DNA of 64,000 nucleotides from Oscillibacter sp. GTDB taxonomy: Bacteria; Bacillota; Clostridia; Oscillospirales; Oscillospiraceae. The stretch lies in the NCBI GenBank assembly GCA_017937405.1, contig JAGBDS010000011.1:16728-80727 (forward strand), read 5' to 3'. Each line of letters starts with the position of its first letter. The first letter of the stretch is position 1. The translations under genes and the position numbers were made by a program. Below, piece by piece: positions 54,898 to 64,000 of this stretch. The notes under the pieces are model-generated. The model saw nothing but the letters and a program-made list of their open reading frames with translations, was not told where the DNA came from and searched no databases.

Positions 54898-54941
54898 TAA
54901 TGTCTTCGATAGTAGACATTATTTGGAAAATATGCTATCAT
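54898..54941 (+). promoter_or_regulatory. Promoter with an overlapping operator candidate
   Basis: TAGACA (54913-54918), a 17-base spacer and TATCAT (54936-54941). The inverted repeat TAATGTCT (54898-54905) and AGACATTA (54914-54921) covers the -35 box. Confidence 0.65.
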
Positions 54942-54971
54942 ACTGTTTATATCAAAATAGGAGGGTTCGCC

Positions 54972-56177
54972 ATGAAAAAAAGAGTATTGTGCTTGATTCT
55001 TACCCTGGTTATGATTTTCGCCCTCGTTCCCTCTGCGGCTGCCGCAAGTGATGAGGCTACCGAGGCGGCGGAGGCCCTGTATGAACTGGGTCTTTTCAAA
55101 GGAACTGGCACCAATCCCGACGGAACACCCATCTTTGACCTGGACAAGACGCCCACCCGGAACCAGGCCATCATCATGCTGGTGCGGCTGTTAGGCAAAG
55201 AGGAAGAGGCAAAAGCCGGAACGTGGAATATTCCCTTTACAGATGTTTCCGATAGCATGAAGCCTTACATCGGCTACGCCTACACCAACGGCCTCACAAA
55301 CGGCTATACTGCCACAACCTACTGCGGTGGCAATCCCATCCGTGCCAACCAATACATCGCTTTTGTTCTGCGGGCTCTGGGATATGTTTCCGGGAAGGAC
55401 TTCCAGGTAAGCACCTCTTGGAAACTGGCGGACGAACTTGGTATCACTCATGGGGAATACGCAAACGCTACCTCCTTTACCCGTGGCGATGTGGCTAAAA
55501 TTTCCCTGAAAGCCCATAAGATTCAAGAAGCCACTGCTAAATTCACCGAACGGCAGTATGCGGACGAAGAATTACAAGCCTTTGTGGATGAAAACCTATC
55601 TTTCCGGGATGCTTGCGACAAACTCTCCACTATCTCGGATGTTGTCCGGTATCTCTATCTGCGAGGCTACCATTTTGAACCGGATAACGCTGGCGTAGAG
55701 GCATCTACCCGCTATCGCCTGAACAGCGGAGCTTGTGTTGGTGGGTCGGCTCTACTCAATGCCCTGCTGGAAGGTGATTATGATGAACAGGGCTATGTAT
55801 ACATTTTCTACGCTCGCGGAGAGCACGTGTTCGATTACTTTGTAAAAGATGGCGTCTATTTTTACTGCGATCTTGTTCCTCTGTTTCACGATAGTGGAAC
55901 ATATCCCCAGAGAGACCCTGTTTGCCACATCACAACCGATCCCAGCACACTCTACGATGCTTGGCTACAATTGGAACCGCATGATTTGAATGACAGTAGC
56001 AGCGATATGTATCTGGCGGCCATGTACACGACGGCTTACTGTGGAAATCCCACCATGCCGGCCATTTGGCTGAGAGACTCCTCGACGGGAAAGTATTCCC
56101 GTATTCCCCTCAGCCCTGCTGAGAAAAAGAGCCAGCAGATTCTGTTTTTGCGGGATGGCTATACCTTTGAGTTTTGA
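54972..56177 (+). CDS. Secreted SLH-like protein with transglutaminase-like core
   Basis: A 401-residue exported protein. Signal peptide at 1-25; SLH-type repeats over about 30-185; then a papain-fold, transglutaminase-like region with Cys255 (SGACVGGSALLNALL), His285 (GEHVFDYF) and Asp300 (YFYCDLVPLF), in the right order and spacing for a Cys-His-Asp triad. ATG 54972 follows AGGAGG. Codon use is AT-richer than in neighbours, suggesting transfer. Possible roles are protein crosslinking or peptidase activity at the cell wall. Confidence 0.75.
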   Translation: MKKRVLCLILTLVMIFALVPSAAAASDEATEAAEALYELGLFKGTGTNPDGTPIFDLDKTPTRNQAIIMLVRLLGKEEEAKAGTWNIPFTDVSDSMKPYIGYAYTNGLTNGYTATTYCGGNPIRANQYIAFVLRALGYVSGKDFQVSTSWKLADELGITHGEYANATSFTRGDVAKISLKAHKIQEATAKFTERQYADEELQAFVDENLSFRDACDKLSTISDVVRYLYLRGYHFEPDNAGVEASTRYRLNSGACVGGSALLNALLEGDYDEQGYVYIFYARGEHVFDYFVKDGVYFYCDLVPLFHDSGTYPQRDPVCHITTDPSTLYDAWLQLEPHDLNDSSSDMYLAAMYTTAYCGNPTMPAIWLRDSSTGKYSRIPLSPAEKKSQQILFLRDGYTFEF

Positions 56178-56241: not shown

Positions 56242-56508
56242 TTACTCTTCCAGAAGGTCAATGTATTTATAAACCGTCGTTCTGCTTAAATCGCACACCC
56301 TCGCCAACTCAGACACATTCAACTGTTTCTTCTTGTAGGCAGGATAGTGGCGAAGGAACACGGCGGGAATATCGTCTGCCGTTGCCTGCGGTCTGCCGAT
56401 CTTGGCTCCTTTGGCCTTGGCGTTTGCCATTCCAGAACGGACACGCTCACGGATGATACGCAACTCCAATTCGGCAAACACCCCGGACATCTGGATAAAG
56501 GCATTAGT
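56242..56508 (-). pseudogene. Remnant of a serine recombinase (resolvase/invertase)
   Basis: Only the C-terminal part of a resolvase remains: TNAFIQMSGVFAELELRIIRERV, the RPQ hinge and a helix-turn-helix (NVSELARVCDLSRTTVYKYIDLL). The N-terminal catalytic domain with its nucleophilic serine is absent; a stop codon (56509-56511) precedes the fragment. It marks a former mobile element next to the AT-rich SLH gene. Confidence 0.8.
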
Positions 56509-57486: not shown

Positions 57487-57635
57487 GCCCCACAAAATCT
57501 CCGATTTTGCGGGGGCCCCGCATTTGACTCAAATCGCCGGGAATAAATTCCGTCGATCTCGAGGTTTTGCCTGCGGCAAAACTCTCGCACGCGTCACTCG
57601 GCGTGGCGGCCCAAGCCAATGCAGCGGAAATCAGA
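57487..57635. repeat. 149 bp hairpin-rich insert behind the EF-G stop codon
   Basis: It contains several small palindromes, such as CAAAATC-TCC-GATTTTG, GGAATAAATTCC and GTTTTGCC-TGC-GGCAAAAC, and no open frame. It separates the EF-G stop from its duplicated tail and terminator, as an inserted repeat element would. Confidence 0.6.
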
Positions 57636-59711
57636 TTACTCCTTCTCTGCCAGCGCCTTCGCCTCGGCGATAGCCTTCTCCTGGGCCGCAGGGGGGCAAT
57701 CCTCGTAGCGGGCGAAGTGGAAGGTGAAGCTGCCGCGGCTCTGGGTCATAGCCCGCAGGTCGATGGCGTAGCTGCCCATCTCGCCCATGGGCACCTCGGC
57801 GGTGATGACCTGGTCGCCGTCGCCGGTGGGGTCCATGCCCATGACGCGGCCCCGGCGCTTATTCAGGTCGCCGATGACGTCGCCCATGTAGCTGTCGGGC
57901 ACGGTGACCTTCAGCTCGCCCACGGGCTCCAGCAGAACGGGGTTGGCCTCGGGCAGAGCGGCCTTGTAGGCCAGCTGGGCTGCGGTCTTGAAGGCGATTT
58001 CGGAGGAGTCCACAGGGTGATAGGAGCCATCGTACAGGACAGCCTTCAGATTCACCACGGGATAGCCGGCCAGAGGACCGTGGACGCAGGCCTCACGCAG
58101 GCCCTTTTCCACGGCGGGGAAGAAGTTCTTGGGCACGGAGCCGCCGAACACTTCCTCGGCGAAAATCATGTCGTCCTGCTCGGTCTGGGGCTCGAAGCGG
58201 ATCCACACGTCACCGAACTGGCCGCTGCCGCCGGTCTGCTTCTTGTGGCGGCCCTGCTTCTGGACGGTCTTGCGGATCTTCTCACGGTAGGGCACGCGGA
58301 CGGGCTTCAGTTCGGCCTCCACATTGAAGCGGGTCTTCAGCTTGGAGATCAGCACATCCACCTGCATATCGCCGGCGCCGGAGAGGACCATCTGATGGGT
58401 CTCGGCGTTGTTGGTCACGGAGAAGGAGGGGTCCTCCTCGTTCAGGCGGGTGAGACCCTGGGCGATCTTGTCTTCCTGTCCACGGGTCTTGGGAGAGATA
58501 GCCACGGAGTAGCAGGGCTCGGCGAAGGGGATGTTCTTCAGAGCCACGACCTTGCGCTGGTCGCACAGGGTATCGCCGGTCTTGACCTTGTCCATCTTGG
58601 CGATGGCGCCGATGTCACCGCAGGTCAGCTCCTTGACCTCAGTGGCCTTCTTGCCCCGCATGGTGTACAGGCGACCCAGCTTCTCAGCGGAGCCGGTGCG
58701 GGCGTTGACCAGGGACATATCGGGGGTGATGGAGCCGGAGAGCACCTTCACGAAGGAATACTTGCCGTACTGGTCGGAGACGGTCTTGAACACGAACGCG
58801 GCAGGCACGCCGCCGGGGGAGACCACGAACTCCTCGGTCTCGCCATCGGCGCGGGTGGCCTTGTGGTAGTTGCCCTCCATGGGGTTGGGCAGCAGGTCCA
58901 CCATGTAGTCCATCAGCATCAGGCTGCCCATGCAGTTGACGGCGGAGCCGCACAGCACGGGGAACAGGCTCAGCTCCCGGACGCCCTGGCGCAGGCCCTG
59001 GATCATCTCGGCGTAGGTGAAGTCCTCGCCGCCGAAGAACTTGTCCATGAACTCCTCGCTGGTCTCAGCCACGGACTCCTTCAGGGCGTCATTGAACTCG
59101 GTGATGACGGCCATCTTGTCTTCGGGGACCTCGATCTCCACGCGCTTGAGGTTCTGCATCTCATAGGCGCGCTTGTTCAGCACGTCGATGATGCCGGTGA
59201 CCTTCTTGTTCTCGTCCCAGATGGGGACCACCAGGGGAGCGATCTTCTTGCCGAAGTGCTCACGCAGGGCGTCGAAGGTGGCGTTGTAGTCACTGTTGTC
59301 CTCGTCGGTCTTGGAGATATAGATAAAGCGGGGCATATTCCGCTCCTCGCAGTATTTCCAGGCCTTCTCCAGGCCCACGGAAACGCCGTCCTTGGCGGAG
59401 CAGACGATGACGGCGGCGTCGGCGGCCCGCAGGGCCTCCATGACCTCGCCGGAGAAATCGAAAGCGCCCGGGGTGTCCAGCACGTTGATGCGGCAGCCCG
59501 TGAACTCCAGGGGCGCCACAGAGGTGGACAGGGATATCTGCCGCTTGGTCTCCTCGGGATCATAATCGCAGACGGTGTTGCCGTCCGCCACACGGCCCAT
59601 CCGGTCGATGGCGCCGGTCATATAAAGCAGGCTCTCCGCCAGGGCGGTCTTACCACTGCCGCTGTGGCCCAGCAGGCAGACGTTGCGGATGTTCTGTACT
59701 GAATAGCTCAT
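57636..59711 (-). CDS. Elongation factor G-like GTPase (EF-G2 type)
   Basis: A 691-residue translational GTPase with all five EF-G domains. G1 is GHSGSGKT (15-22), G3 DTPG (79-82) and G4 SKTD (133-136), instead of the usual NKMD of canonical EF-G. This, and the GHSGSGKTAL start, place it with the EF-G-like paralogues found next to a canonical fusA elsewhere in many genomes. Its exact role (ribosome recycling or a ribosome rescue-type role) is unknown. It has a consensus promoter with repeated upstream boxes, and an odd 3' end with a duplicated tail. Confidence 0.9.
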   Translation of the reverse strand: MSYSVQNIRNVCLLGHSGSGKTALAESLLYMTGAIDRMGRVADGNTVCDYDPEETKRQISLSTSVAPLEFTGCRINVLDTPGAFDFSGEVMEALRAADAAVIVCSAKDGVSVGLEKAWKYCEERNMPRFIYISKTDEDNSDYNATFDALREHFGKKIAPLVVPIWDENKKVTGIIDVLNKRAYEMQNLKRVEIEVPEDKMAVITEFNDALKESVAETSEEFMDKFFGGEDFTYAEMIQGLRQGVRELSLFPVLCGSAVNCMGSLMLMDYMVDLLPNPMEGNYHKATRADGETEEFVVSPGGVPAAFVFKTVSDQYGKYSFVKVLSGSITPDMSLVNARTGSAEKLGRLYTMRGKKATEVKELTCGDIGAIAKMDKVKTGDTLCDQRKVVALKNIPFAEPCYSVAISPKTRGQEDKIAQGLTRLNEEDPSFSVTNNAETHQMVLSGAGDMQVDVLISKLKTRFNVEAELKPVRVPYREKIRKTVQKQGRHKKQTGGSGQFGDVWIRFEPQTEQDDMIFAEEVFGGSVPKNFFPAVEKGLREACVHGPLAGYPVVNLKAVLYDGSYHPVDSSEIAFKTAAQLAYKAALPEANPVLLEPVGELKVTVPDSYMGDVIGDLNKRRGRVMGMDPTGDGDQVITAEVPMGEMGSYAIDLRAMTQSRGSFTFHFARYEDCPPAAQEKAIAEAKALAEKE

Positions 59712-59928: not shown

Positions 59929-62022
59929 TCAAACCAGCAGCACCGGGACCAGCCACAGCAGCAGGAACACCACCAGCGACAGCGGCGTCAGCAGCTCGTA
60001 GGCGCCCAGGAACACCAGGTAGAACGCCAGCAGCGTGCCGGCGGCGCTTCCCAACAGGGCCAGCGCCGACGAGCGCCGGACGGACTTGCACAGCTTCCGG
60101 CTGCCCGTCACCGTCTCCGCGTAGGGCAGCAGGCCCTCCCTGAACAGCAGTGCCCGGGGCAGGTCCCGGTCGTGCTCCGCCTCGCTGAGGGCCACCCGGC
60201 TGGTGAGGTCGGGGAATTCCACCTTCACGCCCTTGTGGAACTTGCGCTTCAAAAGCGCCGGGGTGATGTTAGGGTCCCGGGAGGCCAGAATGGGGGTGAT
60301 GCGGCTGCGGCGCATCATCCGCAGGGCGTAGTCCACATTCTCCGCCGGCTGGTACTTCACCGCGAAGATGGCGATGAGCTGGCGGTCCACCGCCAGGAAC
60401 ACCCCGGTCTTGAGGTTCACGTCTCCCGGCAGCCGCACGGTCATTTTCCGCATGAAGGAGGCAGTGCCCATCAGCACGGACTCCCCGTGGATGGCGGCGG
60501 ACCAGCCGCCCTCCTCGAAGAAGCTGAAGTCGTCCACCTTCTCATAACGGCCGTTCTCCTCCCGCAGCAGGGAGCCAAACAGCCGCTCCAGGCCGCTGCC
60601 CGCGCCCCGGGCCATGGAGGCGGCATAGGCCACCGCCTTCCTCCGCTCCTCGCCGTAGAACCGCTCGCCGTTGAGCTGCAGTGTCCCCGGCGGGAACAGG
60701 TCGCCGTCCGTCACGATCATAGTCCGACGGCGGCTGATCTTCTCCGCGCCGGCCCAGCCCGCCACGGCGCAGCCGGTCTGCTGCAAGTGGCGGGACAGCC
60801 GGGACCAGGGCAAACTCCAGCACAGCGGCAGGGCGAAGGTGGCCCCTGCCGCCAGGATGGCGGACCAGTTCAGCAGGAAGTCCTTCCCCCGTCCCTGGCC
60901 TAAAGAACTCAAGCCGGCGAACACTACCGTCCCCACCAGCACCAGCGGCAGCAGGGCCGTCTGCCAGAGGGCGGCGGCGTTGTCCTTCATGGCGGTGGTG
61001 TAGAACCCCGGCACGGCGCCCCGCTGCTTGCAGGCGCCCCGGTCGGTGTCCGTCACCAGATAGGGCGGCTCGTCGTCCAGAGACGCCGCCCGGAACATAT
61101 CGTACATGCCCCGGCACTCCCGGCTGACGCCCCACTGGGCGAAGGCCAGGGCCAGGCAGGCCGCGCCGCCGTAGGGCGGCACCGCCGTCCGCCCCTCCAG
61201 CAGCAGGCAGGCGGCGCAGTCCGCCGCCGCCGCTAGGGCAGAAATTGAAATCAATAATTCACCGACACACCGCTTCCGGGCCGCCATGGAAAAGCCCTTC
61301 ACGAACACGCCCCGGCACAGCAGGATGTTCAGCGCCAGACAAGTCAGCACCACGATGCTCTGGAAACGGATGTCGCCGCTCCACACGGGCACTGTGATGC
61401 CGTATTTTTCGACAGCGGCCAATATGGTGGGTACCAGACCGATGAACAGTGCCGGCACCACCGTGCCCCGCCGGGCCTGATACCGCTCCCGCCAGTCCGC
61501 CGCCGCGTTGCACAGGTCCTCCTCCGGGCCGATGGGCTCCGGGTCAGGTTCCGGCTCCGGCTCCGGCGGACCGTACAACGACTCCGTCTCCTCCAGAGGC
61601 CGCCGGGAGAACAGTCCCCGTCTCGGCTTCAAAAGAGGCTCCTGATTCTCCTCCATCACCGCGTCCACGGTGCTGCCCACCACTTCCTCCAGGGAAACAG
61701 GCCTGGGCGGCTTTGGCAATTCCTTTTCCAGCTTCTCCAGGTCCACCGCCTGAGCCAGCAGCTTGTCCCGGGCCTCCTGCCGAGCCAGCTCCGCCGCCTG
61801 GGCAGGCTTTGGTTCGGGCTCTGGCTTTGTTTTCGGTTCCGGTTTCAGCTTGGGTTTTGGTTCGGGCTTCGGTTCCGGCTTCGGCTCCTCCGTCAGGAGC
61901 TTCGGCTCCCTCTGGGTGCTGAACTCCGCCAGGATCTCCTCCAGGGAGTAGTCCTCCCCCTCCGGCGGCACATCGGTCAGCAGGGTGTCGTCCAGCCGCA
62001 GGTCATCTTTCTTGTCAGCCAT
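59929..62022 (-). CDS. P-type ATPase-like membrane protein without catalytic motifs
   Basis: A 697-residue protein. Residues 1-180 are a charged Pro/Glu/Lys-rich cytoplasmic tail, with KPEPKPEP repeats near 46-73. Hydrophobic helices follow at about 188-205, 222-240, 254-276, 283-298, 352-374 and 385-404, and two at the end (650-697). Residues 398-450 align by eye with the stretch of metal P-type ATPases that leads to the phosphorylation site, but DKTGT is replaced by DGDLF (Asp439). Residues 497-595 resemble the N and P domain joint (GGWSAAIHGESVLMGT; ITPILASRD in place of the TGD motif). Not a working pump by sequence; function unknown. rlmB lies 15 bases upstream. Confidence 0.7.
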   Translation of the reverse strand: MADKKDDLRLDDTLLTDVPPEGEDYSLEEILAEFSTQREPKLLTEEPKPEPKPEPKPKLKPEPKTKPEPEPKPAQAAELARQEARDKLLAQAVDLEKLEKELPKPPRPVSLEEVVGSTVDAVMEENQEPLLKPRRGLFSRRPLEETESLYGPPEPEPEPDPEPIGPEEDLCNAAADWRERYQARRGTVVPALFIGLVPTILAAVEKYGITVPVWSGDIRFQSIVVLTCLALNILLCRGVFVKGFSMAARKRCVGELLISISALAAAADCAACLLLEGRTAVPPYGGAACLALAFAQWGVSRECRGMYDMFRAASLDDEPPYLVTDTDRGACKQRGAVPGFYTTAMKDNAAALWQTALLPLVLVGTVVFAGLSSLGQGRGKDFLLNWSAILAAGATFALPLCWSLPWSRLSRHLQQTGCAVAGWAGAEKISRRRTMIVTDGDLFPPGTLQLNGERFYGEERRKAVAYAASMARGAGSGLERLFGSLLREENGRYEKVDDFSFFEEGGWSAAIHGESVLMGTASFMRKMTVRLPGDVNLKTGVFLAVDRQLIAIFAVKYQPAENVDYALRMMRRSRITPILASRDPNITPALLKRKFHKGVKVEFPDLTSRVALSEAEHDRDLPRALLFREGLLPYAETVTGSRKLCKSVRRSSALALLGSAAGTLLAFYLVFLGAYELLTPLSLVVFLLLWLVPVLLV

Positions 62023-62037
62023 GACACGCTCTCCCGC

Positions 62038-62805
62038 TCATCCCCGCTGCCGCACGGCCTCGTACAGCAAAATGGCCGCGGCGGCGGAGGCGTTCAGGGA
62101 ATTCAGTTTCCCCCGCATGGGGATGCTGACGAGAAAATCGCAGTTCTCGGCAGCCAGCCGGGTCATGCCCTCGCCCTCGCTGCCGATGACGATGGCGGCA
62201 GGGCCCTTCAGGTCCGCGTCATACAGGCTGGTGGTGCCGTCCGCCGCCGTGCCGAAGACCCACACGCCCTGCTTTTTCAGGTCCTTCAGCAACGCGGGGA
62301 TGTTGGGCACCCGGGCCACGGGCACATGGGCCACCGCTCCGGCGGAGGTCTTTGCCACCACGGCGGTCAGTCCCGCGCTGCGGCGCTTGGGGATGACGAC
62401 GCCGTGGGCTCCGGCGCACTCGGCGGTACGGATGATGGCGCCCAGGTTGTGGGGGTCGGAGATCTCGTCGCAGATGACCAGCAGGGGCTTCTCCCCCTTG
62501 GCGGCTGCGCCTTCCAGGATGCTCTCCACGCTGACGTACTCCCGCACCGCCGCCAGGGCGATGACGCCCTGGTGGGCGTGGGTACGGCTCATGTTGTCCA
62601 GTTTTCGCTTGTCCGCGTCCACCACCACGATGCCGGCGGCCCGTGCCTTGGAGGCGATGTGCCCCAGGGTCTTGTCCGTCTCGCCCTTCAGGATATAAAT
62701 TTTATCAATGCTCTCCCCCGCCCGCAGGGCCTCGATGACGGCGTTGCGTCCCTCGATGACGCCGTCGGCCTCGGCGGTCAGCGCGTTTTTCTTCTGTTCG
62801 TCCAT
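62038..62805 (-). CDS. rlmB: 23S rRNA (guanosine(2251)-2'-O)-methyltransferase RlmB
   Basis: SPOUT-class methyltransferase of the TrmH family. The 255-residue protein has an N-terminal substrate-binding domain (VIEGRNAVIEALRAG) and the three SPOUT motifs: DEISDPHNLGAIIRTAECAG, VIGSEGEGM and SIPMRGKLNSLNASAAAAILLYE. Length matches RlmB (about 245). Probably co-transcribed with the P-type ATPase-like gene downstream. Confidence 0.93.
   Translation of the reverse strand: MDEQKKNALTAEADGVIEGRNAVIEALRAGESIDKIYILKGETDKTLGHIASKARAAGIVVVDADKRKLDNMSRTHAHQGVIALAAVREYVSVESILEGAAAKGEKPLLVICDEISDPHNLGAIIRTAECAGAHGVVIPKRRSAGLTAVVAKTSAGAVAHVPVARVPNIPALLKDLKKQGVWVFGTAADGTTSLYDADLKGPAAIVIGSEGEGMTRLAAENCDFLVSIPMRGKLNSLNASAAAAILLYEAVRQRG

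Positions 62806-62980: not shown

Positions 62981-64000
<1,020 letters not shown>

Follow-up and report, generated by a model that had tools for sequence, protein, structure and literature searches.

The aspartyl-phosphate cycle is the defining feature of P-type ATPases, and the motifs TGE, TGD and CPC have roles in the pump cycle and in metal transport of the P1B type. The locus described here raises the question of what kind of protein results when the build of such a pump is encoded without these motifs, and what this protein may do. It lies within a stretch of 64,000 nucleotides of Oscillibacter sp. DNA, the whole of which is referred to as the window. The open reading frame singled out by the original prediction occupies positions 59929-62022 of the minus strand and encodes 697 residues; it is called the pseudo-pump gene in the following.

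Parts of the protein and relationship to P1B metal ATPases

The gene, its parts and its neighbours are as follows, with the evidence given in brackets.

59929..62022, minus strand: putative P1B-ATPase-derived pseudoenzyme, 697 residues (open reading frame, profile and motif comparisons)
61471..62022, minus strand: low-complexity N-terminal tail, residues 1-184 (residues 37-80 are 70% Pro/Glu/Lys)
61921..61950, minus strand: conserved tail motif YSLEEILAEF, residues 25-34, a putative docking helix (motif profile)
61120..61470, minus strand: four transmembrane helices, residues 185-301 (family-averaged hydropathy; aligned with LpCopA residues 80-217)
60976..61119, minus strand: shrunken A-domain remnant without TGE, residues 302-349 (profile alignments, hydropathy)
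60802..60975, minus strand: helices 5-6 without the CPC metal site, residues 350-407 (CPC count, hydropathy)
60691..60711, minus strand: replaced phosphorylation motif T438-D-G-D-L-F-P444, compared with DKTGTLT (hmmsearch, hhalign, MAFFT)
60325..60660, minus strand: N-domain equivalent, residues 455-566 (N-domain profile match, column counts)
60274..60282, minus strand: degenerate TGD motif, S-R-D, residues 581-583 (hhalign alignment, column counts)
59932..60087, minus strand: last two helices, residues 646-697, the preceding GDGxND segment being absent (profile alignments, hydropathy)
62038..62805, minus strand: rlmB (23S rRNA methyltransferase), upstream neighbour (TIGR00186, 246.9 bits)
57636..59711, minus strand: EF-G-like translational GTPase, located downstream in some bacterial families of the order (NF009381, 890.8 bits)

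Hydropathy revealed a helix plan of 4 + 2 + 2 around the A and P/N insertions, whereby the helices at residues 185-301 are taken to be the equivalents of MA, MB, M1 and M2, and residues 350-407 presumably hold those of M3 and M4. By analogy with the P1B topology, the N-terminal tail is expected to be cytosolic. A promoter and terminator scan at the gene identified no promoter-like site on its strand and no more terminator-like sites nearby than in shuffled sequences.

Searched alone, the 697-residue protein gave weak matches to P1B-ATPase models of NCBIfam (best TIGR01525, E 0.015; 14.2 bits, i.e., below the curated cut-off of 346.25), its core alone gave no match at E 0.01 in Pfam or NCBIfam, and a single-sequence search of the PDB returned no P-type ATPase. 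The sole Pfam match of the full protein, to a trypanosome repeat protein, was rejected as a low-complexity match resting on composition only. The profile search against P-type ATPases that the original prediction had proposed gave significant similarity along the core once homologues were pooled. A profile of 55 members matched Legionella CopA (PDB 3rfu; E 6.6e-29), the matching stretches being collinear and comprising helices 1-4 (i-Evalue 5e-4) and helices 5-6 together with the P/N region (1e-24), the stretch of helices 7-8 not being significant by itself; below 1e-4, every PDB match of this profile is an ATPase for copper, zinc or cadmium or carries a generic cation ATPase name. Comparison by hhalign with 14 real P1B pumps of relatives yielded a probability of 99.9% (E 1.3e-33, 493 columns), with values of 99.5% for the soluble part alone (E 2.2e-21; 99.1% and E 8.7e-19 under other settings) and 99.0% for the N domain alone (E 5.3e-17), and 20 column-shuffled and 2 reversed controls reached 0-0.3%. 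As the soluble part and the N domain match by themselves, the similarity to P1B ATPases is not merely one of hydrophobicity. When the 55 cores were scanned singly at E 0.01, 26 matched TIGR01525 (best 1.2e-12) and 23 the CopA model; NCBIfam matches were to metal pumps only, apart from one stray, and no Pfam family matched any of the cores at this threshold.

When profiles were searched against PDB and NCBIfam, P1B ATPases of the CopA and ZntA type thus matched best, and the pseudo-pump family shares with them the eight-helix plan, the order of parts and the P/N regions. The spacing from motif I to TGD is likewise similar, with a family median of 144 residues compared with 145-154 in the real P1B pumps (measurable in 8/14). 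In a tree of 78 rows, including 22 P1B rows and a single P2 row, the pseudo-pump family (100/99) and the P1B ATPases (100/95) are each split off by a branch, the P2 row lying between them; many pseudo-pump branches are long, and the place of the family among P-type ATPases is unresolved. AlphaFold2, run on residues 185-697 and on the P/N region, each with six close sequences, returned two low-confidence models (mean pLDDT 37.1 and 37.2), which were not used. As structure prediction gave no usable model, the statement that the fold was kept rests on profile comparison. Judged on this basis, the pseudo-pump family is a homologue of the P1B metal ATPases with eight predicted helices and the P/N region kept, which confirms the originally proposed plan of a P-type ATPase without catalytic motifs, including a nucleotide-binding part that is still recognisable.

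Motifs lost and residues newly conserved

DKTGT is named as the signature motif of P-type ATPases in a published report (PMC10654040). Among the 85 aligned family members that underlie the motif and column counts, not one contains it. The three alignment methods (hmmsearch, hhalign and MAFFT) agree that the catalytic Asp of DKTGT aligns with T438, one residue before a conserved Asp. The original prediction was therefore right in that the motif is replaced, but its register, which opposed DGDLF to DKTGT, does not hold, the motif reading T438-D-G-D-L442 instead. The catalytic Asp column is occupied by Thr in 48/85 members and by Asp in 5/85 (5/55 rows in the MAFFT alignment). Likewise, DKTGT was absent from all 14 full-length members found in genomes without a spoIVA match, as opposed to its presence in 16/16 weaker P-type matches of the same search.

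The remaining motifs are affected to different extents. CPC is found in 0/85 members, as compared with 14/14 real P1B pumps, and [SC]P[CH] anywhere in the sequence in three. The A-domain stretch, 119 residues in LpCopA, is represented by about 41 profile positions, and TGE[SAP] occurs anywhere in two members. GD..ND is found in none and GDG..D in one, and the stretch bearing GDGxND is reduced from 46 in LpCopA to 14 in the family profile. TGD reads SRD in the protein of the window, its Gly column (582) holding Arg in 69/85 members and its Asp (583) being kept in 82/85; TGD anywhere in the sequence was counted in 15/85. The earlier statement that neither TGD nor GDGxND is intact hence stands, with the correction that the GDGxND segment is deleted rather than mutated and that TGD retains its Asp. 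In the N domain, the P1B ATP-site Glu and His are those described for the Wilson protein; at the columns aligned with them by hhalign, neither Glu nor His is among the six commonest residues. Two N-domain glycines are kept (506 in 84/85, 519 in 85/85).

A family stripped of its acceptor motif, of the Mg2+ loop, of the metal site and of the larger part of the actuator very probably lacks P-type catalysis, whereby inactivity, including the lack of ATP hydrolysis and ion transport, is inferred from motif loss only. With this qualification, the family would meet the definition of a pseudoenzyme, i.e., a conserved homologue of an enzyme without its catalytic residues.

Next to these losses, new columns are conserved: D439 (76/85), D441 (75/85), F443 and P444 (79/85 each), Y557 (83/85) and N585 (77/85). 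Distant bacterial families mostly keep the F-P pair and vary D439 and D441. Considering the P-type fold, D439, D441 and D583 should lie near one pocket, which is our assumption.

The tail in front of helix 1, 184 residues long here, varies in length among members. Its Pro/Glu/Lys-rich character had been recognised originally, and a conserved motif near its start, [FY]SLEEILAE[FY], has to be added. After omission of 5 tails shorter than 40 residues, 61/80 tails scored 8 bits or more for this motif and 19 less; among tails not used for profile building, 35/54 carried it, and ten shuffled tail sets gave no match. As open frames of only 553-564 residues are found in one bacterial family (f10; L072 and others), tail and motif are almost absent there. 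Within its own genome the pseudo-pump alone carries the motif, and the strict pattern occurred in no other open reading frame of at least 100 codons in 890 kb comprising the window and the sampled loci. The motif was also considered as a common tag, and this was rejected: a search of 8 genomes gave 12 matches, 7 being family members and the other 5 having E-values of 0.02-3.2. A single PDB match (E 1.3) is at chance level.

Distribution, selection and gene neighbourhood

The term order refers to the order of the genome collection used for sampling, which we take to be Oscillospirales; the NCBI lineage of Oscillibacter valericigenes gives Eubacteriales and Oscillospiraceae. With a one-protein query, one match was found in the own genome, and matches were found in 137/150 genomes of the same bacterial family (95/96 good ones) and in 184/197 genomes of the order (148/154 good ones), in most of them a single one. 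When the 13 genomes of the order that had given no match were searched again by profile, one (G306) was added, giving 185/197, and the 13 misses at the level of the bacterial family still yielded no full-length member. Among the 12 order genomes without a member, four are at least 95% complete (G209, G234, G247, G274). Since some misses are nearly complete (these four and G131), such genomes may truly have lost the gene or may carry a strongly diverged copy. In genus g151, two nearly complete genomes (G209, G274) are without a member and a third (G318) has one, possibly a recent loss.

No members were seen outside the order in a class sample of 291 and a phylum sample of 398 genomes, which overlap. 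In the former, 12 listed order genomes exceeded 240 bits, the best score of any other genome being 122 and 71 genomes without a match not being listed by name; in the latter, 7 genomes matched at 1e-36, all of the order. The best matches outside the order were fetched and all 18 contain DKTGT. The family is hence order-wide with usually one gene per genome, and the conserved set of Clostridia homologues sharing the replaced motif, named originally as supporting a distinct family, exists.

Selection on the core is purifying, with dN/dS values of 0.11, 0.14, 0.18, 0.26, 0.43 and 0.15 in six pairs. Lower values, between 0.01 and 0.11, were obtained for the neighbouring genes rlmB and EF-G, and the pseudo-pump core thus evolves faster than these. 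The loss of the hallmark motifs would by itself also be expected of a P-type ATPase gene in decay, but the best match is without internal stop in all 137 genomes of the same bacterial family, and intact frames, purifying selection, new conserved motifs and presence in most of the order rule this explanation out, leaving it practically no probability. The originally proposed view that the family kept the fold and lost ion pumping is supported accordingly, the loss of pumping being inferred from the motifs.

The pseudo-pump gene starts 15 bases past the end of rlmB, the EF-G-like gene follows 217 bases after the end of the pseudo-pump gene, and ftsH begins at 62996 on the opposite strand. The neighbourhood comparison that had been suggested identified rlmB directly upstream and on the same strand in 43/45 loci and in 19/20 sampled bacterial families; one exception reaches its contig end (L095) and the other has no rlmB match in 8 kb upstream (L066). 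The EF-G-like gene, whose product reaches 609.6 bits with the canonical EF-G model and thus misses the cut-off of 659.4, was found in 17/45 loci, in 15 of them on the same strand and no more than 300 bases downstream, in part of the order only (bacterial families f1, f13, f15, f18 and f19). On the other strand ftsH is found in 22/45 loci, close by in 21. Further neighbour clusters did not exceed 8/45 loci, antisense shadow frames (judged by eye) aside, and no co-encoded transporter is conserved across the 45 loci. Outside the order, none of 28 fetched rlmB loci had a pseudo-pump member within flanks of about 1.5 kb. As the EF-G-like gene is present in 17/45 loci only and rlmB in 58/60 genomes of the class, the neighbourhood says little on function.

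Three further observations concern this side of the window. A 711-codon open frame (57567-59702, plus strand) runs antisense to the EF-G-like gene and is probably a codon-use shadow, not a gene. An open reading frame of 82 residues (56242-56490, minus strand) resembles by eye the C-terminal end of a serine recombinase or resolvase without the catalytic part, possibly a mobile-element relic. At 54900-56177 (plus strand) a secreted-looking protein is encoded, with S-layer-homology-like repeats and a transglutaminase-like C-terminal part (by eye).

Proposed function and competing explanations

The best explanation at present, to which we assign a probability of about one half, is that the pseudo-pump serves as a membrane-anchored scaffold or adaptor, a role inferred from what is conserved, namely the body in the membrane, the surface of the headpiece and a tail that looks suited to docking. 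An ancestral P-type pump would have kept its eight-helix body and the P and N regions and lost what the phosphorylation cycle and P1B metal transport require, the loss being documented by sequence. The body is inferred to sit in the membrane, and the long flexible tail may present the docking helix and thereby capture a cytosolic partner, none of which is known. The rebuilt pocket of D439, D441 and D583 may stabilise the headpiece or sense a ligand. The scaffold reading has to face that 19 of the 80 tails lack a convincing motif and that one bacterial family is almost tail-less, that the core evolves faster than its neighbours, that neither AlphaFold2 model was usable and that 12/197 order genomes do without a member. 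The earlier idea of a sensor, scaffold or chaperone remains an inference.

The acidic pocket could also be read in terms of a ligand-sensing regulator, the headpiece of which binds Mg2+ or nucleotide and signals via helices or tail to another transporter. The conservation of its three aspartates, the two retained N-domain glycines and the report that human TMEM94 binds AMPPCP with micromolar affinity without ATPase activity (PMC12134183) are compatible with this, but the ATP-site Glu and His positions are changed, D439 and D441 vary in divergent bacterial families and no transporter is consistently co-encoded, rendering such a regulator a rather doubtful, though the next best, candidate. Less likely still is a cryptic transporter or channel, moving an ion or lipid passively or by unusual chemistry. 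Its precedent is TMEM94/ERMA, a human ER protein that also combines P-type architecture with defective motifs, i.e., DKQGI for DKTGT, GSSANL for GDGVND and no TGES (PMC12134183, PMC13322241). One group claims that ERMA is a Mg2+ pump dependent on its Asp, with D427N abolishing uptake (PMC13322241), which likewise cautions against the pseudoenzyme reading; the other found no ATPase activity or Mg2+ binding of TMEM94 under the conditions used and left the matter open (PMC12134183). All eight helices are kept in the pseudo-pump, but most members are without even the catalytic Asp of ERMA, the A domain and the GDGxND segment are cut and CPC is gone. TMEM94/ERMA furthermore differs in being eukaryotic, in having ten helices and in keeping an A-like domain and the Asp-Lys pair, whereby no sequence comparison underlies these statements.

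A link to sporulation was hinted at originally, and a sporulation-specific membrane protein is a further rival reading. With spoIVA as sole sporulation marker and 396 order genomes (95% completeness floor, own genome added), marker and pseudo-pump were found to co-occur widely, spoIVA being present in 380. However, a full-length member is carried by all but two (G274 and G740) of the 16 genomes that lack a spoIVA match, 11 of these 14 with an rlmB-like open reading frame in the locus, and spoIVA is present in 6 of the 13 genomes of the order that the one-protein query had missed. Assembly gaps may account for the absence of spoIVA in some of the 16, but hardly in G125 (2 contigs, 100% complete) and G780 (30 contigs, 100%), the former being among the carriers. 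Sporulation as sole role is thus not supported and is considered very improbable.

Returning to the scaffold or adaptor, the rlmB and EF-G-like setting weakly hints at a housekeeping function in the vicinity of translation or of the synthesis of membrane proteins, which is no more than a tentative inference. Equally speculative is the extended idea that in this protein, as a core protein of the order, the P-type fold has been given a second, non-catalytic use: a membrane platform to which the tail peptide docks a cytosolic machine, within a translation-linked cluster of rlmB, pseudo-pump and EF-G-like gene.

Compared with P1B ATPases, the pseudo-pump is without DKTGT, CPC and GDGxND, its A domain is shrunk and it has its own Pro/Glu/Lys-rich, motif-bearing tail. 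Apicomplexan guanylate cyclases with a P4-ATPase-like domain are likewise reported to place a P-type-like module in a signalling protein, but these are eukaryotic fusions and, going by the title of one report, the activity of the ATPase domain is essential. Among the matches listed from the open-access PMC literature, and as far as their titles and abstract openings go, no bacterial P-type pseudo-ATPase family is described.

Whether the fold can survive without the aspartyl-phosphate cycle is disputed for human TMEM94/ERMA (PMC12134183, PMC13322241), and a bacterial family that has lost acceptor motif, Mg2+ loop and metal site together with the bulk of the actuator renders this question testable. 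The gene is unnamed, most of the order genomes sampled carry it, and since its only NCBIfam matches, one stray aside, are metal pumps, automatic annotation could mislead. For asking whether it is essential, a 0.9-Mb genome (G843, locus L215; 97% complete, no spoIVA match) that keeps the gene with an rlmB-like open reading frame in the locus is useful. If the extended idea of a docking platform holds true, this would be a bacterial family of dedicated P-type pseudo-ATPases, which this lineage may have made essential for the synthesis of membrane proteins or for the positioning of ribosomes.
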